Assembly: GCA_943325745.2 (NCBI GenBank)
Contig: CALPQP020000001.1
Coordinates: forward strand, 1-29,710
Length of the DNA stretch: 29,710 nt
Source: Gulosibacter massiliensis
Lineage (GTDB): Bacteria; Actinomycetota; Actinomycetes; Actinomycetales; Microbacteriaceae
Direction: 5' to 3'
Made by a program: the position numbers and the translations under genes. The notes below the pieces were generated by a model that saw only the letters and a list, made by a program, of their open reading frames with translations, made no database searches and was not told where the DNA came from. This document shows positions 2,199 to 29,710 of this stretch, in pieces. The first letter of the stretch is position 1, and each line of letters opens with the position of its first letter.

Positions 2199-2204
2199 TA
2201 TTCT
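2199..2204 (+). promoter_or_regulatory. -10 element (TATTCT) of tatB, leaderless spacing
   Basis: TATTCT is followed by exactly 6 bases and then the ATG at 2211, so transcription would begin at or next to the start codon. There is no Shine-Dalgarno sequence in between. Confidence 0.6.
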
Positions 2205-2210
2205 AGAAAT

Positions 2211-2552
2211 ATGTCGTTCGGGCTCACTATCGAGAAACTATTCCTCATCGGACTCGTTGCGCTTCTCGTCGTCGGCCCGGATCGTCTTCCCGGATTCGCC
2301 TCGCAACTCGCTCGACTCGTTACTCGACTTCGGGACATGGCGCGAGGTGCGGAATCACGATTTAAGGACGAATTCGGCGATCAAGTTGACCTGACGGAAC
2401 TTAAGAAACTCGATCCCCGTCAGTATGACCCGCGTCGAATCATCCGCGATGCGCTGAAGGAGGAGCCCGTTCGGGTCAGGCCTCCGCGCACGCCGAAACC
2501 GCAAACCGAGACAAACACGTCTGCAACACCGTACGACGGCGAATCGACCTAG
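2211..2552 (+). CDS. tatB: Sec-independent protein translocase subunit TatB (113 aa)
   Basis: TatB, with TatC, forms the receptor for folded proteins carrying twin-arginine signal peptides at the cytoplasmic membrane. The protein has the standard layout: a short N-terminus with a conserved Glu (residue 8), one membrane helix (about 7-22), the Gly-Pro-Asp-Arg-Leu-Pro hinge (22-27), an amphipathic helix rich in Arg, and a long charged, proline-rich tail. The longer extension and hinge favour TatB over TatA. The ATG at 2211 was chosen over an in-frame ATG at 2154 because the family begins about three residues before the helix and a -10 element sits 6 bases upstream. The gene ends inside CTAG, shared with the stop of the convergent gene. 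In Mycobacterium tatB lies in the same neighbourhood, near mrp. No tatA or tatC is in the window. Confidence 0.93.
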   Translation: MSFGLTIEKLFLIGLVALLVVGPDRLPGFASQLARLVTRLRDMARGAESRFKDEFGDQVDLTELKKLDPRQYDPRRIIRDALKEEPVRVRPPRTPKPQTETNTSATPYDGEST

Positions 2553-3043
2553 GGCTTGTCGCGCGGCGCCTCGGCAAGGGCTCGTTGCGCCGCTCCGGCG
2601 GTTCCCGAGGGCACCGTGACCTCATAGCGCGAGGCGAGCACCTGCTGTACGGAAGAAAAATCCTGTCGGCGGCGGCGGATTGAGTAGAGCGCGAGGGTAA
2701 TCAGCACTCCCATTCCTGCTCCAATAGCGACGACGGCGGGCATCACGAATGTCGTTGTGGGCTCGCTCAGAAGGCTCAGAACAAGACTAAAGAACAGACC
2801 AAACCACGCTCCGTTCAATGCCCCGCGCAGTGCAACTCGGGCGTAGGTCAATCGGCCCGTCACGCGCTCGACGGTGACGAGGTCGCGACCGACAATAGCG
2901 ATGTTCGAGACGTTGTATCCGGCGTGCGCAAGACGGTTGACGATCGATTGTGCCTCGCCGTGCGTATCGACAGTCGACAACACATCGCCGCGCGGAATTG
3001 CGGGGGAAGGGCCGCGACGGGAGAACAGAGACGGAGTCGACAC
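2549..3043 (-). CDS. General stress protein 17M-like domain membrane protein (164 aa)
   Basis: Residues 18-55 form a short alpha/beta domain (Gly-Asp-Val-Leu ... Ala-Gly-Tyr-Asn-Val-Ser-Asn-Ile-Ala-Ile-Val-Gly) like the general-stress 17M-type domain. It is followed by two membrane helices (about 70-93 and 96-121) joined by a short loop, and a second small soluble segment after a basic Arg-Arg-Arg-Arg stretch. The function of this family is not established. It matches the membrane protein found between tatB/mrp and the MgtE-like gene in Mycobacterium (Rv1231c, from memory). The GTG start has no ribosome binding site but lies 6 bases after GAGAAT, consistent with the leaderless pattern. Its TAG stop overlaps the tatB stop in CTAG (2549-2552). 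It is divergent from the MgtE-like gene, 36 bases apart. Confidence 0.75.
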   Translation of the reverse strand: MSTPSLFSRRGPSPAIPRGDVLSTVDTHGEAQSIVNRLAHAGYNVSNIAIVGRDLVTVERVTGRLTYARVALRGALNGAWFGLFFSLVLSLLSEPTTTFVMPAVVAIGAGMGVLITLALYSIRRRRQDFSSVQQVLASRYEVTVPSGTAGAAQRALAEAPRDKP

Positions 3044-3049
3044 GTCTTT

Positions 3050-3055
3050 ATTCTC
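3050..3055 (-). promoter_or_regulatory. Weak -10 candidate (GAGAAT) of the stress-protein gene
   Basis: On the minus strand GAGAAT keeps the key A2 and T6 of the -10 consensus and stands exactly 6 bases before the GTG start. Weaker than the others; accepted mainly for spacing. Confidence 0.35.
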
Positions 3056-3067
3056 TCACCCCGCGAG

Positions 3068-3073
3068 TACGCT
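3068..3073 (+). promoter_or_regulatory. -10 element (TACGCT) of the MgtE-like/DUF1003/mrp operon, leaderless spacing
   Basis: TACGCT is followed by 6 bases and GTG at 3080. There is no ribosome binding site, which argues for a leaderless transcript and fixes the start of the first gene. Confidence 0.6.
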
Positions 3074-3079
3074 GGGAAC

Positions 3080-4336
3080 GTGAGTTCGACACGCGTCTAT
3101 GTCGCCCGACTCGCGGGATGTGCGGTCTTTGACCCACTCGGCGATCGGGTCGGTCGCGTGCGCGATGTTGTCGTGTCCTATCGGACCAAAGGCGCGCCGG
3201 TCGTCGTCGGACTCACCGTGGAAATTCCGGGCCGCCGTCGCGTTTTTTTGTCGATCAATCGAGTCGTCAGCATTCGTCCCAGCCAGATTCTGACGACAGG
3301 CATTATCAATATGCGCCGTTTTGAACAACGTGGTGGCGAGGTGCGCGTTTTTTCAGAGCTCATCGGTCGGTCGATGGATTTTCGCGATGGTTCCGGCTCA
3401 AGCGTCATTGAAGACGTCGCTATTGAGAGTGACGCCAATGGCCAGTGGGATGTCTCGCAACTGTATTTGCGCCGTGCGAAAGCGGCGTCGTTATTCGGCA
3501 AAGGTCAAACGGTGTTCGCGCGGTGGGAGGACGTCACGCCGTCAGGCGCGACCGGCGAATCACAAAGCGCCGAGCATCTCATCGCCACCTATTCGGAATT
3601 GCACCCGGTAGACCTCGCCGCGTCGATTCTGGATCTTCCGGACGACCGCCGCATCGAGGTTGCCGAGGAGCTCTCGGATGAGCGGCTTGCTGATGCCCTC
3701 GAAGAAATGCCCGAAACCGAACAAATCGAAATCTTGGCCGGAATGGATGACGAACGTGTTGCCGACGTGCTGGACAACATGGAACCCGATGACGCGGCGG
3801 ACCTGCTCGCACAGTTCCCGTCCGATCGTTCGGCGCAGATTCTTGACCTCATGGATCCCGATGAGGCTGACGATGTGCGATTCCTCTTGTCCTACGCACC
3901 CGACACCGCTGGCGGGCTCATGTCTACTGAACCGATCATTGTCTCGGCGGAAACGACGGTTGCCGAGGGACTTGCGATGATTCGTCGAAACGAGATCACG
4001 CCAGCGATGGCCGCGTCGATCTGTGTCACGCTGCCCCCGTTCGAGTCACCGACTGGCCGGTTTCTCGGTATCGTTCACTTCCAGAGGATGCTGCGCCATC
4101 CTCCGCAGACCCAACTCGGAACTATTATGGACGCAGGGGCGGAACCACTCCTTGATGTTGCTCCCTTGGGAGAAATCGCTCGCACCTTCGCCAGCTACAA
4201 CCTGGTGTCCCTCCCTGTGGTGGACGAGCAACAACGACTTCTTGGCGTCGTCACCGTGGACGACGTTCTCGACCACATGTTGCCCGAGGATTGGCGTAAC
4301 CCCTATTACGAGAACGAACGGACGAACGGAGCGTGA
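3080..4336 (+). CDS. MgtE N-domain plus CBS-pair protein without transport domain (418 aa)
   Basis: Domains in order: an N-terminal segment (about 1-160) with two PRC-barrel-like repeats (Gly-Asp-Arg-Val-Gly-Arg-Val-Arg-Asp-Val-Val pattern); an MgtE intracellular N domain made of acidic helical repeats (about 170-275: leucines, and Met-Glu-Pro-Asp-Asp-Ala-Ala-Asp); and a CBS pair (about 280-400) ending in Val-Thr-Val-Asp-Asp-Val-Leu-Asp. In full-length MgtE these parts sense cytosolic Mg2+ and gate the pore. The five-helix transport domain is absent, so this is probably a soluble sensor or regulator, not a transporter. An equivalent gene (Rv1232c-like) lies near mrp in Mycobacterium. The frame is open further upstream, but GTG 3080 is preferred because it sits 6 bases after TACGCT. 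It ends 3 bases before the DUF1003 gene, so they form an operon. Confidence 0.85.
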   Translation: MSSTRVYVARLAGCAVFDPLGDRVGRVRDVVVSYRTKGAPVVVGLTVEIPGRRRVFLSINRVVSIRPSQILTTGIINMRRFEQRGGEVRVFSELIGRSMDFRDGSGSSVIEDVAIESDANGQWDVSQLYLRRAKAASLFGKGQTVFARWEDVTPSGATGESQSAEHLIATYSELHPVDLAASILDLPDDRRIEVAEELSDERLADALEEMPETEQIEILAGMDDERVADVLDNMEPDDAADLLAQFPSDRSAQILDLMDPDEADDVRFLLSYAPDTAGGLMSTEPIIVSAETTVAEGLAMIRRNEITPAMAASICVTLPPFESPTGRFLGIVHFQRMLRHPPQTQLGTIMDAGAEPLLDVAPLGEIARTFASYNLVSLPVVDEQQRLLGVVTVDDVLDHMLPEDWRNPYYENERTNGA

Positions 4337-4339
4337 GCC

Positions 4340-4879: not shown

Positions 4880-5960
4880 GGAACTTCGAGCCGCAGTCGG
4901 CGCGGTCATCGACCCCGAATTGCGGCGCTCGCTTGGCGAACTGGGGATGATCGAATCCGCCGAGGTCGAGGGCACGACGGCGAAAGTCACGGTTCTATTG
5001 ACGATTGAGGCGTGCCCGAAACGTTCTGATATCGACGCGGATGTGCGTGCCGCGGCGCTCGCGATGGTCGGGATTCAAGCGGTTGACCTGACACTGGGCG
5101 TGATGAGCACCGAGGCCCGCAAGGCGCTGTCGGCGCGGCTCCACGGCGGGCGAACGGCGGAAGACCGATTCGGACCGAAATCGCTGGTTCGCGTCATCGC
5201 CGTATCGAGCGGAAAGGGTGGAGTAGGGAAGTCCACGGTTGCCGCGAACCTTGCCGTTGCACTGGCCGCCCGCGGACAGAAGGTCGGCTTGCTCGACGCC
5301 GACGTCCACGGATTCTCTATCCCCGGTTTGTTGGGAATTTCGGACGAAAAGCCAACCAAGGTTGAGGACATGATTTTGCCCCCTCGCGCCTTTGATGTCG
5401 GGGTGATTTCGATCGGCATGTTCGTTGATCCACACACTCCGGTGTCGTGGCGTGGACCGATGATGCACCGCACCGTCAATCAGTTCCTCTCGGACGTGTA
5501 CTTCGGCGACCTCGACGTGCTTGTCTGCGACCTACCGCCGGGAACCGGCGACGTTGCGATATCGCTCGGACAGTTGGTGCCCACCGCGGACGTCCTCGTG
5601 GTGACGACACCTCAAGTAAGCGCGAGCGACATCGCCGAACGTTCGGGGCTCGTTGCGCGTCAACTCGGGCAGAGGGTCATCGGCGTGGTCGAGAACATGT
5701 CGGATTGGATCGACGCCAACGGTGTCGCTCACACGATGTTCGGATCAGGCGGTGGTGTCGAGGTCGCTGCGCGTCTTGATGTTCCGCTGTTCGGCAGTAT
5801 TCCGCTGACACCATCGGTGATTGCGGCAGGCGACACCGGAATGCCATTTTCACGTGGCGACCGCGCCGACGTCGCGGTCATCGCCTTCAATCGAATCGTC
5901 GAAGCCGTCATCGATTCGGCGCCACAACGCGGCACGACGTCAATTCCGCTCTCGGTTTAG
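4866..5960 (+). CDS. mrp: Mrp/ApbC-type iron-sulfur cluster carrier ATPase (364 aa)
   Basis: An N-terminal MIP18 (DUF59) domain (about 3-90, with Asp-Pro-Glu at 16-18 and Cys50) is fused to a deviant Walker A P-loop NTPase: Gly-Lys-Gly-Gly-Val-Gly-Lys-Ser at 116-123 and Leu-Asp-Ala-Asp at 143-146. Mrp proteins bind and hand over Fe-S clusters in the cytosol. The Cys-x-x-Cys pair that binds the cluster in enterobacterial ApbC is missing: after Glu-Asn-Met-Ser (276-279) there is Asp-Trp-Ile-Asp-Ala-Asn-Gly. The mycobacterial protein, as I recall, also lacks it, so this looks like a lineage trait. ATG 4866 was chosen because the conserved domain begins at residue 3 and the overlap with the DUF1003 gene suggests coupled translation. 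The stop shares TTAG with the convergent peptidase gene. Confidence 0.92.
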   Translation: MISPEELRAAVGAVIDPELRRSLGELGMIESAEVEGTTAKVTVLLTIEACPKRSDIDADVRAAALAMVGIQAVDLTLGVMSTEARKALSARLHGGRTAEDRFGPKSLVRVIAVSSGKGGVGKSTVAANLAVALAARGQKVGLLDADVHGFSIPGLLGISDEKPTKVEDMILPPRAFDVGVISIGMFVDPHTPVSWRGPMMHRTVNQFLSDVYFGDLDVLVCDLPPGTGDVAISLGQLVPTADVLVVTTPQVSASDIAERSGLVARQLGQRVIGVVENMSDWIDANGVAHTMFGSGGGVEVAARLDVPLFGSIPLTPSVIAAGDTGMPFSRGDRADVAVIAFNRIVEAVIDSAPQRGTTSIPLSV

Positions 5961-7408
5961 GCGAGGCGACGAACCCAGGATTCCACGTCGTCAGCGGTGC
6001 GTGGAATACCAATGGACAAGTTCTCTGCGCCGGTTGACGTGACAAGGATGTTGTCCTCGATGCGAACGCCAATTCCGCGAAAATGTTCGGGAACCGTGAG
6101 GTCATCGACCTGGAAATACAATCCCGGTTCAATCGTGAACACCATTCCCTCGCGCACAATGCCGTCCTTATAGAACTCTTTTCGCGCCTGCGGGCAGTCG
6201 TGCACGTCGAGCCCGAGGTGGTGTGACGTTCCGTGAACCATGTATCGACGATGATGTTGTCCTGATTCGGACAATGATTCGTCAAGAGCGACGGGCAAGA
6301 AGCCCCACTCAGACACGTGACGGGCGATGATGCCCATCGCGGCGGCGTGCACTTCCCGGAAAACAATTCCGGGTTTCACGATGGCGAACGCGGCATCGGC
6401 TGCCTCGAGGACCGCCTCGTAGACCAGTCGTTGGGTCTCAGTAAATCGGCCGTTCGCGGGGAAGGTTCTCGTGATGTCCGCGGTGTACAAGCTCTCGACT
6501 TCGACGCCCGCGTCCATCAGTACGAGATCGCCATCGCGGACGGGGCCATCGTTTCGCACCCAGTGCAAGAAGCAGGCGTGAGTGCCAGCGGCGGCGATTG
6601 TTTCGTAACCCACGTTGTTTCCCTCGGCGCGTGCGCGACGATTGAATGTTCCCTCGATCAATCGTTCGCCACGGCTGTGTGCGGTTACCTCCGGCATCGT
6701 TGCGAGCACATCATCGAACCCCGTCGCCGTTGCCGCAACCGCGAGTCGAATTTCGGAAATCTCGAACGCGTCCTTCACGAGTCGTTGTTCGCTCTGGAAC
6801 ACGGCGAGGTCGTCATCTCGAGTTTCGCAGTGCCCTCGTGCAATATCGACAATGTCGGTGACGGCCGAATCCGCTTCCCGAACCATCGCCCAACTGGAAT
6901 CGGCCTTTGCGAGAACGCCGGAAAGCTCGGCGAGTGATTTCGTCGCGATTCCCAATTCGACAGCAACGTCCTCGGGGGTCGGGCGAGGGCCCACCCAGAA
7001 CTCACCGATGTCGGCATCGGCATAGAACTCCTCGGTGCCACGCCCGGCCGGGAAACGGTAAAACATTGTGGCGTCGTGGTCGCGCCCGTTCGGCGTGAGG
7101 ACAAGAACGGAGTCGGGGACGGTATCGGCACCCCATCCCGTGTAATAGGTGAATGCCGAATGAGCGCGATACGGGTGGTGAGTGTCGTACGACCGCACCA
7201 ACATAGGCCCGGCCGGAATGACGAGTGTTTGGCCAGCGAAATCGGCAGACAAGGCACGTCGGCGTTCGGCACAAAATGGCGCCTGAGTGCGCTCAACCGC
7301 GACGGGCTGCTGAACGTTTCCCCACTGACCCGAGATGTAGCCGTGGAACGCCGAGTTGTGGGGCGTTGTCGATCGGTTTTCGTTGCGCGAGATAGCGTCG
7401 TCACTCAT
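5957..7408 (-). CDS. pepP: Xaa-Pro aminopeptidase, M24B family (483 aa)
   Basis: A PepP-type dinuclear metallopeptidase that removes N-terminal residues preceding proline. It has an N-terminal aminopeptidase-P domain (about 40-190) and a C-terminal pita-bread catalytic domain. All five metal ligands are visible: Asp299, Asp311, His396 (in His-Gly-Thr-Ser-His-His-Leu-Gly-Leu), Glu427 (Ile-Glu-Pro-Gly-Leu) and Glu451 (Val-Arg-Ile-Glu-Asp-Asn). Length is normal for the E. coli PepP type with a modest N-terminal extension. No signal peptide, so it is cytosolic. The ATG has no ribosome binding site but stands 6 bases after CAGACT, fitting a leaderless mRNA. It is divergent from the PHP gene (38 bases). 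Its TAA stop overlaps the mrp TAG stop by 4 bases. Confidence 0.94.
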   Translation of the reverse strand: MSDDAISRNENRSTTPHNSAFHGYISGQWGNVQQPVAVERTQAPFCAERRRALSADFAGQTLVIPAGPMLVRSYDTHHPYRAHSAFTYYTGWGADTVPDSVLVLTPNGRDHDATMFYRFPAGRGTEEFYADADIGEFWVGPRPTPEDVAVELGIATKSLAELSGVLAKADSSWAMVREADSAVTDIVDIARGHCETRDDDLAVFQSEQRLVKDAFEISEIRLAVAATATGFDDVLATMPEVTAHSRGERLIEGTFNRRARAEGNNVGYETIAAAGTHACFLHWVRNDGPVRDGDLVLMDAGVEVESLYTADITRTFPANGRFTETQRLVYEAVLEAADAAFAIVKPGIVFREVHAAAMGIIARHVSEWGFLPVALDESLSESGQHHRRYMVHGTSHHLGLDVHDCPQARKEFYKDGIVREGMVFTIEPGLYFQVDDLTVPEHFRGIGVRIEDNILVTSTGAENLSIGIPRTADDVESWVRRLA

Positions 7409-7414
7409 GACTCA

Positions 7415-7420
7415 AGTCTG
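7415..7420 (-). promoter_or_regulatory. -10 element (CAGACT) of pepP, leaderless spacing
   Basis: On the minus strand CAGACT is followed by TGAGTC and then the ATG, a 6-base gap. The same TGAGTC-ATG context precedes the DUF3107 gene. Confidence 0.5.
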
Positions 7421-7434: not shown

Positions 7435-7440
7435 TATGCT
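7435..7440 (+). promoter_or_regulatory. -10 element (TATGCT) of the PHP gene, leaderless spacing
   Basis: TATGCT, 6 bases, then ATG at 7447. A -35 for this promoter would fall on the pepP -10, so the two divergent promoters probably compete for polymerase. Confidence 0.6.
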
Positions 7441-7446: not shown

Positions 7447-8334
7447 ATGACGTCTCGCCGAATTGACCTTCATCTGCACTCGACCTGTTCGGACGGTGTC
7501 GAATCACCGACGCGTGTGATGGAGGTCGCTAAGGAACAACTGCTCGACGTGGTCTCACTGACCGACCACGACACGACCGCTGGTTGGGACGAAGCACGAG
7601 CAGCCTGCGCACGCCTAGGGATGACCTTCGTTCCGGGCATCGAGTTGTCGGCGTCATTGGACGGAGATTCTGTGCATCTCCTTGGCTATCTCGTCGATCC
7701 CGATTTCCCGGACCTCGTCGATGAGGCGACTAAGACCAAGGACGATCGCGTATGGCGGTTCGAGTCGATGGTCGACAAGATTCATGCGGATATCGAAGGC
7801 TTGACGCGCGAGTTTGTTTACACTTTCCACACGGAAGGCGGAACGCTCGGGCGACCGACAATTGCCCGTGCGTTGGTCGAGTTGGGTGTCGTCGCAACGG
7901 TCAGTGAGGCATTCGACGAGATCTTGGCGCCCGACAACGAGCGTTATTTTGTCGGACACTACGCGCCGACAATCGAACGGGCGATCGAGGTTGTGGTTGC
8001 GGCGGGCGGAGTGCCCGTTTTTGCACATCCGTGGACGGCAGACCGTGCCTCGCTCGCGAGCCCTGATTTGTCTGACGCAGCAATTGACGCAAAATTTGGT
8101 GCACTCGTCGACATCGGACTAGCCGGCCTCGAAGTTCATCACGAAGAAAACACGCCGGTTGGGCGCGAGCGGCTCGCCGCGATCGCCGCACGCTACGACC
8201 TGATCATCACCGGGTCGAGCGATTATCACGGGGACGGAATGAAACCCGTTTTACCCGGGCAACACACAACCGCACCGGACATGTTCGAGCGGATCGCTGA
8301 GACTGGAACGGGTTCTGCTATCGCGTGGGCGTAG
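7447..8334 (+). CDS. PHP domain phosphoesterase (295 aa)
   Basis: The N-terminus carries the full PHP metal signature: His-Leu-His at 9-11, Asp16, Thr-Asp-His-Asp at 39-42 and Gly-Ile-Glu-Leu-Ser around Glu66. Later come Phe-Ala-His-Pro (near 195) and Ser-Ser-Asp-Tyr-His-Gly near the C-terminus. Size and motif spacing match the YciV/RNase AM-type single-domain PHP proteins, which remove phosphate from nucleoside 3',5'-bisphosphates or trim short RNA 5' ends; the exact substrate here is inferred. No export signal. The start has no ribosome binding site and lies 6 bases after TATGCT. The TAG stop directly abuts the TAA stop of the convergent glycosyltransferase (TAGTTA, 8332-8337). Confidence 0.88.
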   Translation: MTSRRIDLHLHSTCSDGVESPTRVMEVAKEQLLDVVSLTDHDTTAGWDEARAACARLGMTFVPGIELSASLDGDSVHLLGYLVDPDFPDLVDEATKTKDDRVWRFESMVDKIHADIEGLTREFVYTFHTEGGTLGRPTIARALVELGVVATVSEAFDEILAPDNERYFVGHYAPTIERAIEVVVAAGGVPVFAHPWTADRASLASPDLSDAAIDAKFGALVDIGLAGLEVHHEENTPVGRERLAAIAARYDLIITGSSDYHGDGMKPVLPGQHTTAPDMFERIAETGTGSAIAWA

Positions 8335-9507
8335 TTAGCGGCTCTTCAATCGGTCGAGGAGAATGCGCACGAGGCTCGGTCGCGTCTGATCCAATTTTGA
8401 TTGGAGTTTGAGCAGTCTCCGTTCAAGGTTGCGTATAGAACGCATCTCGACAGTCGGATTGGAATTCCGTTCTGATGGAGCGATTGCCCGAACAAATGGA
8501 TCTGCAAGATCCAAAGCAATGTCAGCTATCCGTTGCGTTTCATCGATGCATTCCGCGGGGCTGGAATCTGGAGGGCGAATGCCTCGGATGATTTCTGGCA
8601 CTAGCGAAGACAATCGTTCATCCCGAACAGCAGTGACGCCGCTGACCGTGATCCGAGCCTCGGTTATGCCCGTCGGAACGGACGACAAATTCCACTCAGC
8701 TTCACGCACGGATTCCAGGATTTCAAACTCGGCGTCACCCGTGTCTAGTGACGTGCCGACGTCGCGTTGAGCTCGAATTGCCGTCGCTCGACGGACCGTG
8801 AGGCTGCTTCGACTTCGACACGGAAGATGGAGAACACTCACGGCGGACGATTCTGTTTCCGGATAAAAATCACCGGTCATCACGTTGAGAACTCGATGGT
8901 TTCCTTTACGAAGCCAATCGAAGTCTCCCTCTGTGCCTGGCACCAGACGCATGACGACCTTCTTCGGTTTTGATGAGAACGCATATCGTTTATATCCGGT
9001 GGGGCGATTGAGGAGAAACTCTGTGGGTTTTTCTCCTCGTTGAGCCAGATAGTGGACGTGCGACAGGTCGTTGGGAGTGAAGTCCGACACGTCGGAAGAT
9101 TGGTAGAAGTGTTCCATGACACACGACAACGCTCGTGTGTCAGTGTTTGCTAACCAATCGCGTACCTCGTCGATGAGTGGCCGCGACGTACCTGTGAAGA
9201 ACTCGTCGGCGTCGAAAGGGACGAAAGCGTCAAACCCGTCTTTTCGAGCGAGGTGGGCGAGCGCGGTCATTGTTGATGCTTGGCTGAACAGTGGGCTGTT
9301 TTTTCGAATCCAGCGAATTTTTGCCTCGGCGGGAATTTGGCGTAAAAAAAGGTCGCGGGGATCCCCGCTCGAACGGTGATCAAGGATGTAAAAATCCGTG
9401 ATTCCCTGGTTCACCATATGTGTCACGACCGCTACGGCAATATCCCACGAGTCGAAAATCATCGAACCCGCTGCGACGCGCGCGGAGGGAGAGGCTTTTC
9501 TTTTCAC
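8335..9507 (-). CDS. GT2-like glycosyltransferase family protein (390 aa), lower-GC gene
   Basis: Residues about 10-110 resemble a family-2-like transferase domain, with Asp43-His in the first turn and Phe-Asp-Ala-Asp-Glu-Phe-Phe at 98-104, the acidic sugar-nucleotide/metal motif. The C-terminal third is poorly conserved to the eye and ends in a charged, leucine-containing coiled-coil-like helix with a basic tail. No signal peptide or membrane helix. The acceptor is unknown and no polysaccharide cluster surrounds it. A 60-base sample has about 48% G+C against 60-65% in adjacent genes, and many codons end in A or T, so it may be a later arrival in a conserved locus. GTG 9507 is preferred because TAGTTT stands exactly 6 bases upstream. 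It begins 24 bases after the helicase stop. Confidence 0.6.
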   Translation of the reverse strand: MKRKASPSARVAAGSMIFDSWDIAVAVVTHMVNQGITDFYILDHRSSGDPRDLFLRQIPAEAKIRWIRKNSPLFSQASTMTALAHLARKDGFDAFVPFDADEFFTGTSRPLIDEVRDWLANTDTRALSCVMEHFYQSSDVSDFTPNDLSHVHYLAQRGEKPTEFLLNRPTGYKRYAFSSKPKKVVMRLVPGTEGDFDWLRKGNHRVLNVMTGDFYPETESSAVSVLHLPCRSRSSLTVRRATAIRAQRDVGTSLDTGDAEFEILESVREAEWNLSSVPTGITEARITVSGVTAVRDERLSSLVPEIIRGIRPPDSSPAECIDETQRIADIALDLADPFVRAIAPSERNSNPTVEMRSIRNLERRLLKLQSKLDQTRPSLVRILLDRLKSR

Positions 9508-9513: not shown

Positions 9514-9519
9514 AAACTA
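9514..9519 (-). promoter_or_regulatory. -10 element (TAGTTT) of the GT2-like gene, leaderless spacing
   Basis: On the minus strand TAGTTT, 6 bases, then GTG. It lies in the 24-base gap after the helicase gene, so the transferase can be transcribed independently. Confidence 0.55.
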
Positions 9520-10875: not shown

Positions 10876-10902
10876 AAAACACCCAATCGGTTGGTAAACA
10901 TC

Positions 10903-10927: not shown

Positions 10928-10933
10928 TATGCT
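10928..10933 (+). promoter_or_regulatory. -10 element (TATGCT) of the ferritin-like gene, leaderless spacing
   Basis: TATGCT is followed by 6 bases and GTG at 10940; the alternative GTG at 10937 would be only 3 bases away. The promoter therefore favours the second of two consecutive GTG codons. Confidence 0.55.
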
Positions 10934-10939: not shown

Positions 10940-11656
10940 GTGGCCAGCCTTTTTCGAAGGAGTGGGCGTTCCTCGACATCCGGCTCACGGAGCCGATCGA
11001 GGGTCGCCGATGCGAGCGCGCGCGTCGAATTTACCGACCTCGCGCCGTCTCCCGATGTCTTTCTCGGTCAGAGTGCTTATCTGTTTTTGCGCTACGCCGA
11101 GTCCGCGGCGCGCCACGCCCACGACGCGACCGACCTCGAGACGGAATCGACGCTCGCGATTGTCGCCGAGGAGTGCTTTGTTCGATTTTCGAGCCTCGCC
11201 GCGACGTTGGACAAATTGAAAGTTGATCGCGTCGCGGCGATGAGTCCGTTCATCGCCCCGACGAGGGAATTTGAACGACGGACTCGCGGACGAAACTGGG
11301 TTGAACGACTCGCGTGCACCTGGGTGACGATGGCGTTCCTCCAGGATTTTTGGCGTCGACTAGCCCAAGGTCTTCCCACGAAGGTCCGCGCGGATGTCAT
11401 TGCGGCGCTCGATGGTGACAGGATAATTGACGTCCTTCGAACGGAACTGGAACGTCGAATTGCTCTCGAACCCGGGCTGCGACCCACACTTGCGCTGTGG
11501 TCGAGACGACTGGTCGGCGACACGATGCTCATGGCCGAGAGCGCTCTGCTTGAGAACCCCAACCCGAAGCCCAAAGAGGACGGCCTCGGACCCGTCTTCA
11601 CCGAACTCATCACATCCCATTCGTTACGAATGGACGCGCTGGGTTTGACCGCCTAG
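10940..11656 (+). CDS. Ferritin-like-fold protein (238 aa)
   Basis: After a Ser/Arg-rich N-terminus the protein is almost wholly helical. Its helix pattern and position beside the DEAD-box helicase and DUF3107 match the 'ferritin-like fold-containing' actinobacterial family (the Rv3210c position). Classic diiron ligands are not obvious: the second helix reads Glu-Glu-Cys-Phe-Val-Arg-Phe, where a Glu-x-x-His would be expected. An oxidase or iron-storage role is therefore unsupported. No membrane segment or export signal. Two tandem GTG codons open the frame; 10940 is chosen from promoter spacing. The TAG stop overlaps the DUF3107 stop in CTAG. The family assignment rests on context as much as on sequence. 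Confidence 0.6.
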   Translation: MASLFRRSGRSSTSGSRSRSRVADASARVEFTDLAPSPDVFLGQSAYLFLRYAESAARHAHDATDLETESTLAIVAEECFVRFSSLAATLDKLKVDRVAAMSPFIAPTREFERRTRGRNWVERLACTWVTMAFLQDFWRRLAQGLPTKVRADVIAALDGDRIIDVLRTELERRIALEPGLRPTLALWSRRLVGDTMLMAESALLENPNPKPKEDGLGPVFTELITSHSLRMDALGLTA

Positions 11657-11874
11657 GAAACGAAGCCGACGGGCCGCGACTGGGCGGTGCCGAATTCGAT
11701 GTAGGTGACACCGGTTGCGGCAATCAGGTATTCCTGACCCTTGGCGTCGCTGAGGCGAAGAACGCCTTTCGCGGCCAGCGCGGCGGTGTACTTCTGCTCG
11801 ATGTCGGCGACGCTCGCATCCGTGTCGAATGCGAGTTCGCGGGGGGCGTGTTGAATTCCAATACGAATGTCCAT
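11653..11874 (-). CDS. DUF3107 family protein (73 aa)
   Basis: A 73-residue alpha/beta microprotein: an N-terminal strand (Asp-Ile-Arg-Ile-Gly-Ile), the Pro-Arg-Glu-Leu segment, an amphipathic helix, a Val-Leu-x-Leu-x-Asp-x-Lys-Gly turn and a C-terminal Tyr-Ile-Glu-Phe-Gly strand. This is the full DUF3107 pattern. The function is unknown; in Mycobacterium the homologue (Rv3208A) lies in the same neighbourhood. The cytosolic location is inferred from the absence of any hydrophobic segment. ATG 11874 stands 6 bases after TAGCCT with no ribosome binding site. The gene converges on the ferritin-like gene, sharing CTAG at the stops, and is divergent from adnA. Confidence 0.92.
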   Translation of the reverse strand: MDIRIGIQHAPRELAFDTDASVADIEQKYTAALAAKGVLRLSDAKGQEYLIAATGVTYIEFGTAQSRPVGFVS

Positions 11875-11880: not shown

Positions 11881-11886
11881 AGGCTA
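11881..11886 (-). promoter_or_regulatory. -10 element (TAGCCT) of the DUF3107 gene, leaderless spacing
   Basis: On the minus strand TAGCCT, then TGAGTC, then ATG: a 6-base gap identical in sequence to that before pepP. Confidence 0.6.
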
Positions 11887-11907: not shown

Positions 11908-11913
11908 TACAGT
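11908..11913 (+). promoter_or_regulatory. -10 element (TACAGT) of adnA, leaderless spacing
   Basis: TACAGT is followed by 7 bases and ATG at 11921, with no ribosome binding site. Only 46 bases separate the divergent adnA and DUF3107 start codons. Confidence 0.55.
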
Positions 11914-19317: not shown

Positions 19318-19323
19318 TACTTT
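19318..19323 (+). promoter_or_regulatory. -10 element (TACTTT) of uvrD2, overlapping a minus-strand -10
   Basis: TACTTT on the plus strand would start a transcript about 40 bases before the uvrD2 ATG. It shares five base pairs with the opposite-strand TAAAGT. Confidence 0.45.
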
Positions 19324-19324
19324 A
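19319..19324 (-). promoter_or_regulatory. -10 element (TAAAGT) of the phosphotransferase-like gene, leaderless spacing
   Basis: TAAAGT, 6 bases (ACGGAT), then ATG at 19312 on the minus strand. Overlaps the uvrD2 -10 candidate, suggesting one bidirectional melting site. Confidence 0.55.
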
Positions 19325-21805: not shown

Positions 21806-23137
21806 TCAGTCGCCCTCCACAGTCCCGTCTTCGTCGATTAACCTCCGGATTGCATCGTCCATGGCGTCGGGGGGTTGACCATTCCCCGACAGTCGAGAAA
21901 TCAGAGCAGCCGGATCGTCAATATCGCCACCGGTCGGCATGACGTCGGGGTGAGCCCAGACGCTGTCCCGTTGTTCGGGTGAAACGGCCGCATCGAGCGC
22001 GCGCCACATCGACGCCGCTTCGCGCAAGCGCCGTGGACGGGCATCGATTCCAATCAGTCCCGCGAGTGCTTTTTCTCCAGGTCGTCCCACAGCGCGATGC
22101 CGGCGAACCATTTCCGCGATTGCGTTGCGACTCGGCAGACGGTGGGCGGCGTTGTCGGCGACGACATCGACCCACCCCTCGATCAGTGCAAGTAGAGTTT
22201 CGATTCGAGTCAGGGCGATGACCTGGTCGTCCGTTTTGGGCGGAATGAGCGACCCGTCGCTGACGAGGCGTCGAAGCGCCTCGGCGTCCGTCAAGTCAAT
22301 GTCGCTCATCGCATCACGCATGCTCTCGGCATTGATAGAAATTCCGTTCGCGTAATCGGTGATACTCGCGACGAGTCCCAACTTGAGCCACTTGGAGTGC
22401 TTGAACAGGCGGGCGTGGGCAATCTCTCGGATTGCGAGGTAGAGCATGACGTCGTCCAGCGGGATGTCGAGACCTTCGGCAAATGCGGTGATGTTCTGCG
22501 GAATCAAAACCGCGCGCAACTCGTGTTCGAGGACGCCATCGAGGAGCGGAATTCCGATGTCACCGCCAGAGAGAACCTCACCAGACAGCTGGCCGATGAT
22601 TTGGCCGAGCTGCAACGAAAACAGCGTGCCTCCGAGTCGCCGCAAGGCGGCAAATGCGCCGGCTGCCGTGGCGGATTCGCCTTCGGGGATGCTGTCACCC
22701 AAGGCGCGCTCACCGGCGGTTGAAATCGACTGAGCGACGGGCTCGGAAATCTGAATCCATACGGGAATCGTGGCCCGCGCCCATTCGCCACGAGTCATGG
22801 TCGACGGGCTCACGGTGAGCGGGGAAATCGAGGTCGCTTCGTCCAACCACAAGGACGCCAAGTGGAGGGCGCTTTCGGCCGCTGCCACGGTCGCTTCAGC
22901 GACCGTCTCCGCCTGTTGGTTTGCCACCTTCGTTGCTGTGTCCCTGACCATCTGCTCGGTGATGCCTTCATTGCCGTGGGACAGGGCTTCGTGTAACTGG
23001 GTCAACATTTTTTCGATGGTCGCTGCGTCGCCCGGAAGCCCAGCCGCTTTGGCGAGTTCCGCGATATCAAAGTGCTCACCGTTCTCGAGGAACTTGCGCA
23101 GCATCTCCTGGAATTCATCGGAGCCGTCATCAGCCAT
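21806..23137 (-). CDS. Zincin-like metallopeptidase-family protein, DUF2342 type (443 aa)
   Basis: A helical protein with the DUF2342/zincin_2 signature in the middle: Leu-Ala-Ile-Arg-Glu-Ile-Ala-His-Ala-Arg-Leu-Phe (234-245) with His247 shortly after. The first His of the HExxH zincin motif is Arg237, as in this actinobacterial family generally as I recall it (Arg-Glu-x-Ala-His), so classical zinc protease chemistry is doubtful. The family is sometimes labelled 'putative hydrolase' or F420-biosynthesis-associated, without proof. No signal peptide or clear membrane segment. It is the first gene of a pair with the cyclodehydratase-like gene and is divergent from the PDZ-Lon-like protease across 44 bases, the same order as Rv3195/Rv3194c. 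ATG 23137 stands 7 bases after TACGGT with no ribosome binding site. Confidence 0.82.
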   Translation of the reverse strand: MADDGSDEFQEMLRKFLENGEHFDIAELAKAAGLPGDAATIEKMLTQLHEALSHGNEGITEQMVRDTATKVANQQAETVAEATVAAAESALHLASLWLDEATSISPLTVSPSTMTRGEWARATIPVWIQISEPVAQSISTAGERALGDSIPEGESATAAGAFAALRRLGGTLFSLQLGQIIGQLSGEVLSGGDIGIPLLDGVLEHELRAVLIPQNITAFAEGLDIPLDDVMLYLAIREIAHARLFKHSKWLKLGLVASITDYANGISINAESMRDAMSDIDLTDAEALRRLVSDGSLIPPKTDDQVIALTRIETLLALIEGWVDVVADNAAHRLPSRNAIAEMVRRHRAVGRPGEKALAGLIGIDARPRRLREAASMWRALDAAVSPEQRDSVWAHPDVMPTGGDIDDPAALISRLSGNGQPPDAMDDAIRRLIDEDGTVEGD

Positions 23138-23144: not shown

Positions 23145-23150
23145 ACCGTA
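23145..23150 (-). promoter_or_regulatory. -10 element (TACGGT) of the zincin operon, leaderless spacing
   Basis: On the minus strand TACGGT, 7 bases, then ATG at 23137. Divergent from the protease promoter 18 bases away. Confidence 0.55.
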
Positions 23151-23168: not shown

Positions 23169-23174
23169 TAGTCT
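23169..23174 (+). promoter_or_regulatory. -10 element (TAGTCT) of the PDZ-Lon protease gene, leaderless spacing
   Basis: TAGTCT is followed by 7 bases and the GTG at 23182; no ribosome binding site is present. Confidence 0.6.
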
Positions 23175-23181: not shown

Positions 23182-24294
23182 GTGACTGAATCCTCGGGTG
23201 ATACCGTCCCGCGTCGACCGCGCTTGAGTCGCGCCGGCTGGGGCGTGACGCTAATGGCATTGAGTGTTATTGGCACACTGGGACTTGCCTCGGTGCCGGC
23301 ACCGTACGTCATCGAAACGCCGGGCCCGGTTTACAACACGCTGGGGTCCGCCGAGGATGCCGACGGTAAGGAAACGCCCCTCATCACGGTATCGGGCACT
23401 GCCACCTATCCAACCGAGGGTCAACTCTCGATGCTGACGGTGTATATCCAAGGATCACCCGATTCTCACCCCACGTGGTTTGAGGTCGCGGCCGCCTGGA
23501 TGCGACCCGATTACGCGGTGCTCCCGATGCAATTGCTGTACCCCGAGGGAACGACGCGAACAGACTCGGCCAACGCCGCCAAGATCCAGATGGACAATTC
23601 GCAACAGGAAGCGATTGCGGCCGCGCTCACAAATCAGGGAATCCCCTTCGAATCCGAGATTGTTGTCGCCGAAGCGACCCCGGGGTATCCGTCCGAGAAA
23701 CTCGTTGAGCCAGGGGACATTGTCAAAGCGGCGGATGGCATTTCCATTGAAAACGTGTCGGACCTTCGCGCCGTCATCAACACAGCGGGAATCGGCAATT
23801 CAATCGAACTGGTCGTCGAGCGCAATGGTGCGACCGTGACATTGACCGTCGGCGTTGTGGCATCCGAGCACGACGGTACCACTCCGGTGATTGGAATTCT
23901 GGCTGGCGGCAATTACCGATTCCCCTTCGATGTCGACATTTCTCTTGCGGACGTCGGAGGCTCGAGCGCGGGCATGATGTTCGCACTGGGAATCATCGAC
24001 ACCATCACACCGGGGTCGCTCAACGGCGGGGCAAACGTCGCAGGGACGGGCGAAATCTCGGCGGACGGTTCGGTCGGCCCCATCGGCGGCATTGTGCAAA
24101 AGGCGTTCGGCGCACGCAATTCCGGCGCAACCTGGATGCTGGTTCCGGCCGAAAACTGTGGGGCGCTCTTTGGTCACATTCCGGATGGTCTCCGCGAAGT
24201 TTCCGTGTCAACACTCGATGATGCGATGGCCGCACTTCGCGCGATCTCGACTCAATCGGGCACCGAAGCGCTTCCCCATTGCTCTGCTGGCTAG
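23182..24294 (+). CDS. Membrane-anchored PDZ and Lon-like (S16) serine protease, YlbL type (370 aa)
   Basis: Order of parts: a short basic cytosolic tail; one N-terminal membrane helix (about 20-40); an extracytoplasmic linker; a PDZ domain (about 165-225, with Leu-Val-Glu-Pro-Gly-Asp-Ile-Val); and a Lon-type proteolytic domain (about 240-350). The Ser-Lys catalytic dyad is visible as Ser262 in Gly-Gly-Ser-Ser-Ala-Gly and Lys307 in Gly-Gly-Ile-Val-Gln-Lys, 45 residues apart as in Lon. It should degrade or process envelope or membrane proteins outside the cytoplasm. Length fits the YlbL/Rv3194c family (about 340-370 aa). GTG start by promoter spacing. UPF0182 follows 49 bases downstream with its own promoter, and no terminator lies between, so read-through is likely. 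Confidence 0.92.
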   Translation: MTESSGDTVPRRPRLSRAGWGVTLMALSVIGTLGLASVPAPYVIETPGPVYNTLGSAEDADGKETPLITVSGTATYPTEGQLSMLTVYIQGSPDSHPTWFEVAAAWMRPDYAVLPMQLLYPEGTTRTDSANAAKIQMDNSQQEAIAAALTNQGIPFESEIVVAEATPGYPSEKLVEPGDIVKAADGISIENVSDLRAVINTAGIGNSIELVVERNGATVTLTVGVVASEHDGTTPVIGILAGGNYRFPFDVDISLADVGGSSAGMMFALGIIDTITPGSLNGGANVAGTGEISADGSVGPIGGIVQKAFGARNSGATWMLVPAENCGALFGHIPDGLREVSVSTLDDAMAALRAISTQSGTEALPHCSAG

Positions 24295-27360: not shown

Positions 27361-27366
27361 TAGGCT
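27361..27366 (+). promoter_or_regulatory. -10 element (TAGGCT) of the nitrilase gene, leaderless spacing
   Basis: TAGGCT, 6 bases, then ATG at 27373. Because a strong terminator ends at 27338, this promoter must drive the gene, which makes the leaderless reading convincing here. Confidence 0.65.
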
Positions 27367-27372
27367 CGGAAT

Positions 27373-28161
27373 ATGGAGAAACTCAGCGTCGGGTTGGTGC
27401 AATTTTCGCCGTCCGATGACGCCGCCGACAACCGTGAAGTGTTGCGTGACGCGTTCGGCCACCTCGGCGACGCCGACCTCATCGTTCTTCCCGAATACTC
27501 CGCGTGGTTTCACACCGACACCGAGCGCTGGCATGACGGCGCAGAGCCCATCGACGGACCGTTCGTCACTTTCCTTAGAGAACAATCACGGGAACTCTCG
27601 GCGACCATTCTCGCCGGATTACTTGTATCGAACGGCGATAGCATCACGAACACGGTTGTCGCGGTCGATGCCCACGGGGTGGTCGGACGATACGACAAGG
27701 TCCACTTGTATGACGCGTTCGGCGCGCTCGAATCGGCGGTCATCACCGCCGGGGACCCCGCCGAATCCCCGTTGGTCGTTGACGTCAACGGATGGTCGGT
27801 CGGCGTTCAAACCTGTTACGACCTCCGATTCCCCGAGGTCTCGCGCCGCTTGGTCGATGCGGGAGCAACAGTTCTGGCGGTTCCCGCGGATTGGGTTCCG
27901 GGTCCGCGAAAGTCGGAACACTGGCAGACGCTCCTGAGGGCTCGTGCCATCGAGAACGTCTCGTGGGTTGTCGCTGCGAATCACGCCGGGTCTTCTGGAA
28001 TCGGCGAATCTATGGTCGTCGACCCTCAGGGGGACGTCATCATCGAGGCCAGTGCGGGCGAAATTGTGTTAGATGTTGTCCTTGATCCCGACGCGGTCCT
28101 GGCGGCTCGCCGCTCGAACCCGGCTCTTCGGAACCGTCGTTACGGGGTCGCACCTCTGTAG
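27373..28161 (+). CDS. Nitrilase-superfamily carbon-nitrogen hydrolase (262 aa)
   Basis: The catalytic triad Glu41 (Leu-Pro-Glu-Tyr), Lys109 (Tyr-Asp-Lys-Val-His-Leu) and Cys148 (Thr-Cys-Tyr-Asp-Leu-Arg-Phe-Pro-Glu) is complete, with the alpha-beta-beta-alpha spacing expected for the superfamily. Length and the Asp-Leu-Arg-Phe-Pro-Glu motif place it with the Nit/omega-amidase-like amidohydrolases, which hydrolyse small amides such as deaminated glutathione or 2-oxoglutaramate; the substrate here is not determined. It is cytosolic and monocistronic: a terminator precedes it and the next gene has its own start signals 48 bases later. The start is leaderless-like, with no ribosome binding site. 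Confidence 0.9.
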   Translation: MEKLSVGLVQFSPSDDAADNREVLRDAFGHLGDADLIVLPEYSAWFHTDTERWHDGAEPIDGPFVTFLREQSRELSATILAGLLVSNGDSITNTVVAVDAHGVVGRYDKVHLYDAFGALESAVITAGDPAESPLVVDVNGWSVGVQTCYDLRFPEVSRRLVDAGATVLAVPADWVPGPRKSEHWQTLLRARAIENVSWVVAANHAGSSGIGESMVVDPQGDVIIEASAGEIVLDVVLDPDAVLAARRSNPALRNRRYGVAPL

Positions 28162-28197
28162 CTGGGGATAATTCGCCCCTTCCTCACCGAGGTGTGG

Positions 28198-28203
28198 CAC
28201 CCT
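28198..28203 (+). promoter_or_regulatory. Weak -10 candidate (CACCCT) of the lipoprotein gene
   Basis: CACCCT keeps A2 and T6 and lies 6 bases before ATG 28210. A better hexamer, GATAAT at 28167-28172, would instead give a leader of about 30 bases; no ribosome binding site is well placed for either. Confidence 0.3.
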
Positions 28204-28209
28204 CACTGA

Positions 28210-28707
28210 ATGCGCACTCTATTTGTCATTGCATTCGGGTTGCTCCTCGCGGGTTGCTCTGCGGGCGTCCCGCCTGAGAACGAACCGACCGCAACACCGC
28301 CGGCGATCGCGGATACCAGTGTCCTCGTCGCGGATGCCGAGTTGTTGATTGGGGCAACGCTGGAAGATTACATTGAGGTGACGAATCAAATTGTGTCCGG
28401 TGATACGCCGGTTTCGGCGATAAATGGCCTGACCACTCCCGAGTGGGCAATCGAAGAATCCAACGGATTCGCGGCGCTCACCGCGTTGGGCCCAAACGCA
28501 GCGACAGTGTCGATGTCGCGCTGGCAACTCACCGCGATGCGGGGACGACACACAGTGGTTGATGCGCTCGTTTCGGCCTGTCTGGGCAGCGCGACAACAC
28601 AGTTTCACGTGACCGTTCGATTGATTCCGCGCAACGGCGCACTAGTCATCGATGAGATTTCACCCTGGGAGGACTCAACATGGTGCACCGTGTCTCCGTC
28701 GCTCTGA
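28210..28707 (+). CDS. Small predicted lipoprotein (165 aa), function unknown
   Basis: A lipoprotein signal peptide is clear: Met-Arg-Thr, a hydrophobic run (4-13) and the lipobox Leu-Ala-Gly-Cys with lipidated Cys16. A Pro/Thr-rich linker leads into a compact domain of about 120 residues with a helix, a Trp-x-Leu-Thr-Ala segment and strands. Two cysteines in the mature part (one in Val-Ser-Ala-Cys-Leu, one in Ser-Thr-Trp-Cys near the end) could form a disulfide. It should sit on the outer face of the membrane. I recognise no named family. Its last 28 bases overlap the next gene, so the two are coupled and probably act together. Confidence 0.8.
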   Translation: MRTLFVIAFGLLLAGCSAGVPPENEPTATPPAIADTSVLVADAELLIGATLEDYIEVTNQIVSGDTPVSAINGLTTPEWAIEESNGFAALTALGPNAATVSMSRWQLTAMRGRHTVVDALVSACLGSATTQFHVTVRLIPRNGALVIDEISPWEDSTWCTVSPSL

Positions 28708-29435
28708 TCGTGGTGTTGGCGGCGACCGCGATGTCTGCCCCCGCGACGGCCGTCTCGTGTAGCGGCGCACAAATTGCTGCGGGGTCGTGTTCAGTTGGTG
28801 GTGGCACAACCGACACCGGAGTCGACCTGTGGGGTGACGCGACATCGGGCGGCTCATCAGGTGGCGCTGACAACGACGGGCCGGATGAATGCCCCGTCGT
28901 TGTCAACGGGCAGTGTGTTGGTACGTCGCCACCCAAGGGTGGTGGTGGACCGACGTCCGTCAGCGATCTCGAATCGTTTGAACCGCGGTCACCGCAGCAG
29001 TTCGTCGAACCGACGGGATGGGCGATCCGACGGATCCCCGCGAATTTTTGGTCGACCGCCCAGGCCCACGTCGTCTCGGGCAGACTGCTGGACCACCCCG
29101 CCCGTGTCAGATTTTCCCCGGTGCTGTATCGGCGTTCCTTTGGAGACGGTTCTCGGCAGACGAGTGAGAGTCCTGGCGAAACCTGGCGGGCACTCGGCCA
29201 GCCACCGTGGACACAAACACCGACGAGCCACTCATACGCCGAGGTCGGAGACGTTCGAGTTCAGCTCGTCGTTTTTTACTCGGCGAAATTTAAGTTCGGT
29301 TCTCAGGGCTGGCGGTCTCTTACCGGCCTCGTGAAGGCCAGGGCGAATGACCTCACCGTAAGCGTTCTCGCGGCCGACACGGCCCTCGTTGATCAACCGT
29401 GTTCGCGAGGGGCATTCGGATGTCCCTTCGAGTGA
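28680..29435 (+). CDS. Secreted PKD-like domain protein (251 aa), function unknown
   Basis: A Sec signal peptide (about 1-24, ending Ala-Thr-Ala) precedes a Gly/Ser/Asp-rich low-complexity region and a C-terminal beta domain. In the latter, Phe-Gly-Asp-Gly-Ser (154-158), Ser-His-Ser-Tyr (183-186) and Val-Gly-Asp-Val-Arg-Val-Gln-Leu-Val-Val reproduce the PKD-domain pattern. Six cysteines remain after cleavage (27, 37, 71, 79, 241, 248), an even number suited to disulfides outside the cell. No LPxTG or transmembrane anchor is seen, so it may be released or held by the lipoprotein. GGGAGGA at 28667-28673 lies 6 bases before the ATG, inside the upstream gene. PKD folds usually bind proteins or carbohydrates; no catalytic residues are apparent. 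Confidence 0.8.
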   Translation: MVHRVSVALIVVLAATAMSAPATAVSCSGAQIAAGSCSVGGGTTDTGVDLWGDATSGGSSGGADNDGPDECPVVVNGQCVGTSPPKGGGGPTSVSDLESFEPRSPQQFVEPTGWAIRRIPANFWSTAQAHVVSGRLLDHPARVRFSPVLYRRSFGDGSRQTSESPGETWRALGQPPWTQTPTSHSYAEVGDVRVQLVVFYSAKFKFGSQGWRSLTGLVKARANDLTVSVLAADTALVDQPCSRGAFGCPFE

Positions 29436-29496
29436 CAAATGGAAACATTTAGGTAACTTTGGGAAATTCTTAGGAAAAGCGTCCATTCTTGAGGGT
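29436..29496 (+). promoter_or_regulatory. Regulatory gap with TTAGG direct repeats and -10 (CATTCT)
   Basis: This 61-base, AT-rich gap holds two TTAGG elements at 29449-29453 and 29470-29474, 21 bases apart (two helical turns). CATTCT at 29484-29489 stands 7 bases before the ATG at 29497. The arrangement suggests an activator or repressor acting on the downstream gene. Confidence 0.4.
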
Positions 29497-29710
29497 ATGG
29501 AAAACGAGAACGTCCCCACTCCCGCCCTTCGCAAACCTCGCGTTCGCAAACCCGTCATCGAGCCGCCGTCGATTCCCCAACCGCGCCAGCCATTCCTTGT
29601 CGGCGACATGCCCATCAAAACGGCCGCGGCAATCGCGGTCATTGCTGGATTGATCGGAGGCGGTGTGGGCGTTGCAATCACCGGGTTGACGGGAGCGACG
29701 TATCGAACGG
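29497..29710 (+). CDS. N-terminus of a single-pass membrane protein, possibly HtrA/DegP-like protease (partial)
   Basis: Only the first 71 codons are in the window. They encode a proline- and arginine-rich cytosolic tail (about 1-41) followed by one membrane helix (about 43-66) rich in Ala, Ile and Gly. Membrane-anchored trypsin-like HtrA proteases of actinobacteria begin this way, and the AT-rich upstream repeats would suit a stress-controlled gene, but no catalytic domain is visible, so the name is speculative. The start follows CATTCT by 7 bases; GAGGG is too close to serve as a ribosome binding site. Confidence 0.6.
   Translation, partial: MENENVPTPALRKPRVRKPVIEPPSIPQPRQPFLVGDMPIKTAAAIAVIAGLIGGGVGVAITGLTGATYRT

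Follow-up and report, generated by a model that had tools for sequence, protein, structure and literature searches.

Leaderless genes are well described in Actinobacteria: about 20% of actinobacterial genes are predicted to be TA-led, i.e. leaderless (PMC3160421), and leaderless transcripts represent 26% of the genes with a primary transcription start site (TSS) in Mycobacterium tuberculosis (PMC3898074) and 33% of the mRNAs (707/2,147) in Corynebacterium glutamicum (PMC3890552). Closely juxtaposed divergent promoters are called common in M. tuberculosis in a figure legend of the study of that species (PMC3898074). Here we analyzed a stretch of 29,710 nucleotides from Gulosibacter massiliensis (contig CALPQP020000001.1, positions 1 to 29,710; hereafter the window), in which eleven genes are preceded by a TAnnnT hexamer lying 6 or 7 bases before the start codon. 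Together, the results suggest that these hexamers belong to promoters of the sigma-A type that begin transcription at the start codon itself, and that the genes behind them are probably leaderless.

The sequence-only reading of the window had placed TAnnnT at this distance before eleven named starts (tatB, MgtE-like, PHP, GT2-like, ferritin-like, DUF3107, adnA, phosphotransferase-like, zincin, PDZ-Lon and nitrilase genes) and CAnnnT or GAnnnT variants before those of pepP, the stress protein, the lipoprotein and the last gene. In a scan for TAnnnT over the 4-10 bases upstream of start codons, all eleven hexamers (11/11) were found at 6 or 7 bases. The four variants (4/4) likewise lie at 6 or 7 bases. 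By chance, TAnnnT would be expected at these distances in about 0.9 of the 26 window genes (background 14.9/444), and eleven were seen. Hereafter, d is the number of bases between hexamer and start codon, and a notation such as TATTCT/6 gives the hexamer and this distance.

The same reading had called for a plot of the distances from TAnnnT to start codons across the genome. Run on half of the genome (449,781 of 899,666 bases; the assembly has 141 contigs and is 66% complete) with 444 usable genes from a simple gene caller, a number that was 405, 424 or 444 depending on settings and filters, this plot gave the anticipated peak. The hexamer was found before 79 genes at d = 6 and 29 genes at d = 7, versus 1-16 genes (about 7) at every other distance between 0 and 40, and the control hexamers T[CGT]nnnT and TAnnn[ACG] gave no peak. 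A count made independently of gene calls gave 66 TAnnnT-ATG combinations at d = 6 and 46 at d = 7 versus 11-35 elsewhere (d 0-20), and 54 and 35 TAnnnT-GTG combinations versus 21-48 elsewhere; in this count TTG showed no peak. TGA was also high at d = 7 (62) and CAT at d = 5 (45), which reflects their overlap with ATGA and CATG, respectively. Genome-wide, the stricter pattern TAKANTN6ATG was counted 19 times versus once for a reversed control that is somewhat too favourable. A pattern search of divergent gaps was non-zero in 167/199 genomes versus 10/199 for its reversed control. Such reversed controls, on which no figure reported here rests, are too favourable because they contain rarer triplets (GTA 5,145 versus ATG 11,379).

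The same peak was observed in a relative of the same genus (G010; 1.2 Mb, 1123 genes; 208 genes at d = 6 and 64 at d = 7), in a genome of the same family (G015; 400 kb, 345 genes; 27 and 12) and in one of the same order (G020; 400 kb, 335 genes; 45 and 28). Signal-bearing genes of the G. massiliensis genome start with ATG (69), GTG (38) or TTG (2; n = 109), and TAnnnT-led genes of G010, where ATG and GTG were the sole eligible codons, with ATG (184) or GTG (86; n = 270). Among genes lacking TAnnnT, the variants are enriched at d = 6 (CAnnnT 19 seen versus 10.0 expected, GAnnnT 26 versus 16.0) and near background at d = 7 (26 versus 19.6 and 19 versus 17.8). A single CA or GA match is about equally likely to be chance or real, which makes it weak evidence, and these variants are credible only where they are conserved, i.e. 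for pepP and the stress protein.

After correction for background, the TAnnnT excess amounts to 21.7% of the 444 genes, and to 20.8%, 9.2% and 17.5% of the genes in G010, G015 and G020, respectively. The claim that the share of leaderless genes is high was not borne out, since 21.7% lies within the published range; this comparison is a rough one, the mapped shares of the literature referring to transcripts or to those genes that have a start site, and ours to genes. The window itself is enriched (11/26 versus 108/444 genome-wide; one-sided binomial 0.033), an enrichment due at least in part to its seven divergent pairs, which comprise 14 of the 26 genes (versus 126/444 divergent genes genome-wide). 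Both the leaderless trait and its share are ordinary for actinobacteria.

TAnnnT and Shine-Dalgarno (SD) sites largely exclude each other. An SD core was found at 4/108 TAnnnT-led starts versus 118/336 (35%) of the other called starts, and in G010 at 7/270 versus 338/853 (40%). With operon position judged from orientation and distance alone, the TAnnnT excess reaches 42.5% of the 126 divergently oriented genes and 10.1% of the 164 genes separated by under 25 bp from a preceding gene on the same strand. These numbers agree with the division proposed for the window, in which promoter-proximal genes are set apart from SD-led ones. TTGACA-like hexamers with a 15-19 base spacer were not enriched over control offsets in the 108 TAnnnT promoters of the G. 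massiliensis genome, the 270 of G010, the 39 of G015 or the 72 of G020; a hidden -35 element of this kind was rejected on the basis of these four genomes. A TG before the hexamer (TGn extension) is present in 7% of the promoters here and in 4% in G010.

RbpA was found in 29 of 30 relatives and a CarD/TRCF-domain match in 27 of 30. The latter count led us to reject a loss of CarD from the genus, which a missing match in the G. massiliensis genome had suggested. RbpA (PF13397) gave two matches in 10 of 15 genus genomes, of which the second is usually the more divergent; one of the RbpA matches is truncated by the end of a contig.

In order to evaluate conservation, 306 reciprocal best orthologs of the G. 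massiliensis genome and G010 were compared (302 scorable; median protein identity 67.5%), with signals counted at spacings 6 and 7 only. The signal is kept in G010 in 53 of the 70 orthologs of TAnnnT-led genes, while 18 of the 232 other orthologs are led there (Fisher p = 1e-28). The spacing of the 53 kept pairs is 6/6 in 34 cases, mixed in 13 and 7/7 in 6, and 17 of them have exchanged ATG and GTG. Identity between the two genomes is 55-66% in the middle of the hexamer, versus 32-51% over the ten upstream bases and 18-50% in the spacer; the T, A and T themselves were fixed by the selection of these sites.

The best reading of the motif, the SD sites and operon position is that the hexamers mark sigma-A promoters from which transcription begins at the start codon, a reading to which we assign a probability of roughly 0.88. 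To that extent leaderlessness, as proposed for the window, is supported, the start point itself being predicted: it is placed on the codon because the distance between hexamer and codon equals the usual distance between a -10 element and the TSS. TAnnnT would be the -10 element of the primary RNA polymerase, transcription would begin 6-7 bases past the hexamer, and the first transcript base would be the A or G of ATG or GTG. The resulting mRNA would have neither leader nor SD site, and the ribosome would have to begin at the 5'-terminal codon. Recognition would lean on the -10 element because a -35 element is undetectable and the TGn extension rare; RbpA and CarD-type proteins could plausibly stabilise such promoters and hold them open. 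Many operon-internal genes use SD sites instead.

Several observations weigh against this reading. Chance alone should account for about 15 of the 108 TAnnnT matches. When triplets after TAnnnT were counted independently of gene calls, CAC was in excess at d = 0 (66) and d = 3 (58) versus 24-46 at other distances, and CAT was also high at d = 0. The signal is absent from G010 in 17 of the 70 orthologs, of which 7 have an SD site there and 4 an NAnnnT variant. Ten TAnnnT-led genes of the window could be compared with an ortholog row in G010; nine keep the signal, and the PDZ-Lon gene lacks one at either spacing (6 or 7). No CarD/TRCF-domain match was found in the G. massiliensis assembly, which is incomplete as stated above. 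In contrast to the promoters described here, a weakly conserved -35 element (ttgnca) is reported in C. glutamicum (PMC3890552), and promoters of translation genes in Propionibacterium acnes carry a GnTTnG -35 element (PMC3848588). Finally, the absence of a leader cannot be distinguished from a leader only one to a few bases long, because the spacing between -10 element and start point varies, from 3 to 11 nt in C. glutamicum (PMC3890552).

This last point bears on the first alternative, in which the -10 elements are real and the first transcribed base lies at a distance of one to five bases from the codon. The occurrence of both spacings, and a distance of 7 or 8 before adnA among relatives, would fit such very short leaders; the sharp peak at 6-7, the background level elsewhere and the ATG/GTG bias fit a start on the codon better, and we consider short leaders improbable. 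More improbable still is a translation or DNA-binding signal in place of a promoter. The undetectable -35 element speaks for it, and three facts speak against it: TAnnnT is the mapped -10 element in M. tuberculosis (PMC3898074) and C. glutamicum (PMC3890552), it is rarer ahead of close same-strand genes, and two leadered genes of the window, encoding a methyltransferase and a DEAD-box helicase, carry TAGAGT and TAGACT further upstream. Least probable of all is an artefact of start choice, which could have arisen since the starts were first set partly by the motif and since any candidate start close to the coding start could qualify in the gene-based counts: the gene-free count gives the same peak, coding score alone also favours 78 of the 109 starts that bear the signal, and other distances, scored alike, stay at background, which makes the peak as a whole safe even if single genes could be wrong.

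Leaderless genes and putative -10 elements of the window are listed in Table 1, and their upstream sequences were compared by eye in the loci of relatives (L-numbered rows; L070 is a distant relative). The tatB hexamer is kept in 3/3 close relatives (L062-L064), reads TATTGT/7 in L069 and stands before GTG in G010. The MgtE signal was found in 3/3 close relatives before GTG or ATG (TAGGCT/6 in G010), and the PHP signal in 3/3 as well (TACGAT/6 in L069, TAGACT/6 in G010). The MiaE_2 signal is present in 7/7 relatives (TATGCT/6 in G010) and that of DUF3107 in 7/7 close relatives (TACGCT/7 in L069, TACCCT/6 in G010). For adnA, d = 7 in 6/7 close relatives and 8 in L063, and G010 has TATTCT/6 before an ATG located a little upstream. 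The APH signal is kept in 6/6 close relatives, with TACCCT/7 in L069, TAGCCT/6 in G010 and TATAGT/6 in L070 at 28.6% protein identity. Zincin (d = 7, 6 in L063; TACGGT/6 in G010) and PDZ-Lon signals were each found in 4/4 relatives, and the nitrilase hexamer is unchanged in G010 (TAGGCT/6). The GT2-like gene has TATTCT/6 in L061 and no signal in the L060 row (49% identical); the other misses are the MgtE, PHP and adnA rows of L070. The variant of pepP (CAGACT/6) is conserved in L062, L063, L064 and G010, and that of the YflT-domain stress protein (GAGAAT/6 with GTG) in L062, L063 and L064, where it was read from the complementary strand of the MgtE rows, with CACAAT/6 in G010. The sites before the lipoprotein-like and last genes are candidates read from the window sequence, and that of the last gene is of a class (CAnnnT at d = 7) that is near background genome-wide.

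The motif also served as a guide to start codons, as had been proposed. For the YflT gene, GTG 3043 fits, rather than position 2983 favoured by the coding score, at which L063, L064 and G010 have no start codon. Combined with conservation, the 6-7 base TAnnnT rule helps to set the starts of about one fifth of the genes in this group, at positions that offer no SD site as a guide.

Table 1. Putative -10 elements and associated genes of the window, with distances in bases from hexamer to start codon.
Feature	Position	Strand	Remarks
tatB -10 hexamer TATTCT	2199..2204	+	6 before ATG 2211
tatB-like gene, predicted leaderless	2211..2552	+	TatA_B_E E=0.00037, just under Pfam cut-off
Stress protein -10-like GAGAAT	3050..3055	-	6 before GTG 3043
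YflT-domain stress protein, probable leaderless gene	2549..3043	-	PF11181 E=6.4e-21 (scanned from 2983)
MgtE-like -10 hexamer TACGCT	3068..3073	+	6 before GTG 3080
MgtE_N/CBS/PRC-barrel gene, predicted leaderless	3080..4336	+	36 bp from divergent YflT start
pepP -10-like CAGACT	7415..7420	-	6 before ATG 7408
pepP (aminopeptidase P), probable leaderless gene	5957..7408	-	PF00557, PF05195
PHP -10 hexamer TATGCT	7435..7440	+	6 before ATG 7447
PHP-domain gene, predicted leaderless	7447..8334	+	PF02811; 38 bp from pepP start
GT2-like -10 hexamer TAGTTT	9514..9519	-	6 before GTG 9507
GT2-like gene, predicted leaderless	8335..9507	-	PF13704, below curated cut-off
MiaE_2 -10 hexamer TATGCT	10928..10933	+	6 before GTG 10940
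MiaE_2 (ferritin-like) gene, predicted leaderless	10940..11656	+	PF13794
DUF3107 -10 hexamer TAGCCT	11881..11886	-	6 before ATG 11874
DUF3107 gene, predicted leaderless	11653..11874	-	PF11305
adnA -10 hexamer TACAGT	11908..11913	+	7 before ATG 11921
adnA-like gene, predicted leaderless	11921..15100	+	UvrD + PDDEXK domains; 46 bp from DUF3107 start
adnB-like gene, operon-internal	15093..18311	+	SD-like GAGGT
APH-like -10 hexamer TAAAGT	19319..19324	-	6 before ATG 19312
APH-family phosphotransferase-like gene, predicted leaderless	18308..19312	-	PF01636
Zincin -10 hexamer TACGGT	23145..23150	-	7 before ATG 23137
Zincin_2 metallopeptidase gene, predicted leaderless	21806..23137	-	PF10103
PDZ-Lon -10 hexamer TAGTCT	23169..23174	+	7 before GTG 23182
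PDZ-Lon protease gene, predicted leaderless	23182..24294	+	PF05362, PF13180; 44 bp from zincin start
Nitrilase -10 hexamer TAGGCT	27361..27366	+	6 before ATG 27373
Nitrilase (CN_hydrolase) gene, predicted leaderless	27373..28161	+	PF00795
CACCCT candidate, lipoprotein-like gene	28198..28203	+	6 before ATG 28210
CATTCT candidate, last gene	29484..29489	+	7 before ATG 29497

Three further loci of the window are of note. The divergent methyltransferase/tatB pair (2155-2211) appears to combine both modes, tatB being predicted leaderless and the methyltransferase gene leadered; in the window the latter has an AGGAGG-type SD site, and close relatives keep the TAGAGT hexamer that belongs to it. The DEAD-box helicase gene (GTG 10875) has a predicted leader of about 20 bases devoid of an SD site (10876-10908, - strand). 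The leader stretch ttaccaaccgattgggtgtttt before the GTG, which contains a small CCAA/TTGG inverted repeat and lies downstream of a conserved TAGACT-like -10 element, is strongly conserved in 7 close relatives, slightly altered in L063, and differs in G010; it is possibly a regulatory leader. Upstream of tRNA-Met (cat; 27226-27302), a TAGACT ends about 13 bases before the gene, which is consistent with a short tRNA leader and the same promoter type.

Leaderless genes being known, the least familiar part of the window is its compact divergent pairs. Start codons are separated by 36 bp in YflT/MgtE, 38 bp in pepP/PHP, 46 bp in DUF3107/adnA and 44 bp in zincin/PDZ-Lon, one gene of each of the first two pairs being assigned through a GA or CA variant. 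In the G. massiliensis genome and G010 together, 23 of the 43 doubly TAnnnT-led divergent pairs lie at 30-47 bp. Median gaps for pairs with neither, one or both genes led are 145, 72 and 42 bp in the former and 177, 96 and 46 bp in the latter (overlaps of 20 bp or more left out). Between two diverging leaderless genes, the space would shrink to two -10 hexamers and their spacers. The -35 region of each promoter would then lie on or near the -10 element of its partner, and binding of polymerase should be mutually exclusive. The size of the polymerase footprint would imply such exclusion at divergent promoters this close.

Among seven conserved pairs doubly led in the G. massiliensis genome, four are also doubly led in G010. 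Four of the seven keep their gap within 1 bp (46/45, 32/33, 43/43 and 44/45 bp), and three change it (56/82, 43/88, and an overlap of 13 versus a gap of 147 bp). The zincin/PDZ-Lon pair was followed in 30 zincin loci (98 genomes matched), and both signals were found in the window's own locus only. Three other loci have divergent match points within 900 bp, none of them doubly signalled, and four have them further apart; 22 of the 30 have no PDZ-Lon match, five loci measured being about 4 kb and possibly too short to include it. Co-selection of leaderlessness within pairs was rejected, with 15 doubly led pairs versus 12.9 expected in the G. massiliensis genome and 28 versus 26.2 in G010. Helical phasing, suggested by gap clusters near 30-34, 38-45 and 51-52 bp among at least 103 places, was rejected as well, the clusters vanishing when similar sequences were collapsed. 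The 44 resulting groups are about flat from 30 to 54 bp, and 2 of them fall below 30; grouping used a strict threshold that may have combined unrelated sites, and the floor of about 30 bp rests on thin numbers.

As the number of doubly led pairs matches independence, the simplest reading is that the compact pairs may follow from loss of the leader and of the need for a -35 element, i.e. from plain geometry. It is doubtful, if worth considering, that they form a distinct architecture of these small-genome actinobacteria (same-genus genomes span 0.7-1.6 Mb, several being incomplete). Such an architecture would consist of back-to-back -10-only promoters with starts mostly 30-47 bp apart and a floor of about 30 bp (corresponding to a separation of at least about 6 bp between the hexamers), where one polymerase footprint would cover both starts and expression would alternate in the absence of a regulator. 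If they behave as predicted, the compact pairs would offer a simple way to test whether -10-only promoters exclude each other. Among the matches listed for leaderless and divergent or bidirectional genes, titles and abstract openings contained no description of such pairs, and none of the titles found for leaderless genes and Microbacteriaceae dealt with leaderless genes in this family.

The closest likeness for these pairs is with bidirectional promoters (PMC12825309), in which divergent promoters also share one short stretch and binding of one prevents binding of the other. The commonest TSS distances there are 18, 10 and 23 bp, whereas the pairs described here lie mostly at 30-47 bp with separate -10 hexamers, and the predicted starts of the four window pairs are 36, 38, 44 and 46 bp apart. 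A few pairs elsewhere (12 bp in the G. massiliensis genome, 18 bp in G020, 23 and 23 bp in G010) could be of the bidirectional type. With P. acnes (PMC3848588) the window genes share TAnnnT, a start-codon usage dominated by AUG (68%) and GUG (29%; UUG 3%) and ferritin as an example, and with C. glutamicum (PMC3890552) TAnnnT and the use of AUG (79%) and GUG (21%), no other start codon being reported there. M. tuberculosis (Cortes et al. 2013, PMC3898074) likewise has a TANNNT -10 element and no conserved -35 element, with TGN in 7% of cases; its starts were mapped by experiment, whereas ours are deduced from sequence. The TA-led genes of Actinobacteria (Zheng et al. 2011, PMC3160421) have TAnnnT about 10 bp before the start in a similar one fifth of genes, and only the operon-proximal gene can be leaderless. 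No qualitative difference from that description was found here, and the present genomes represent another lineage in which leaderless status tends to pass down gene by gene.

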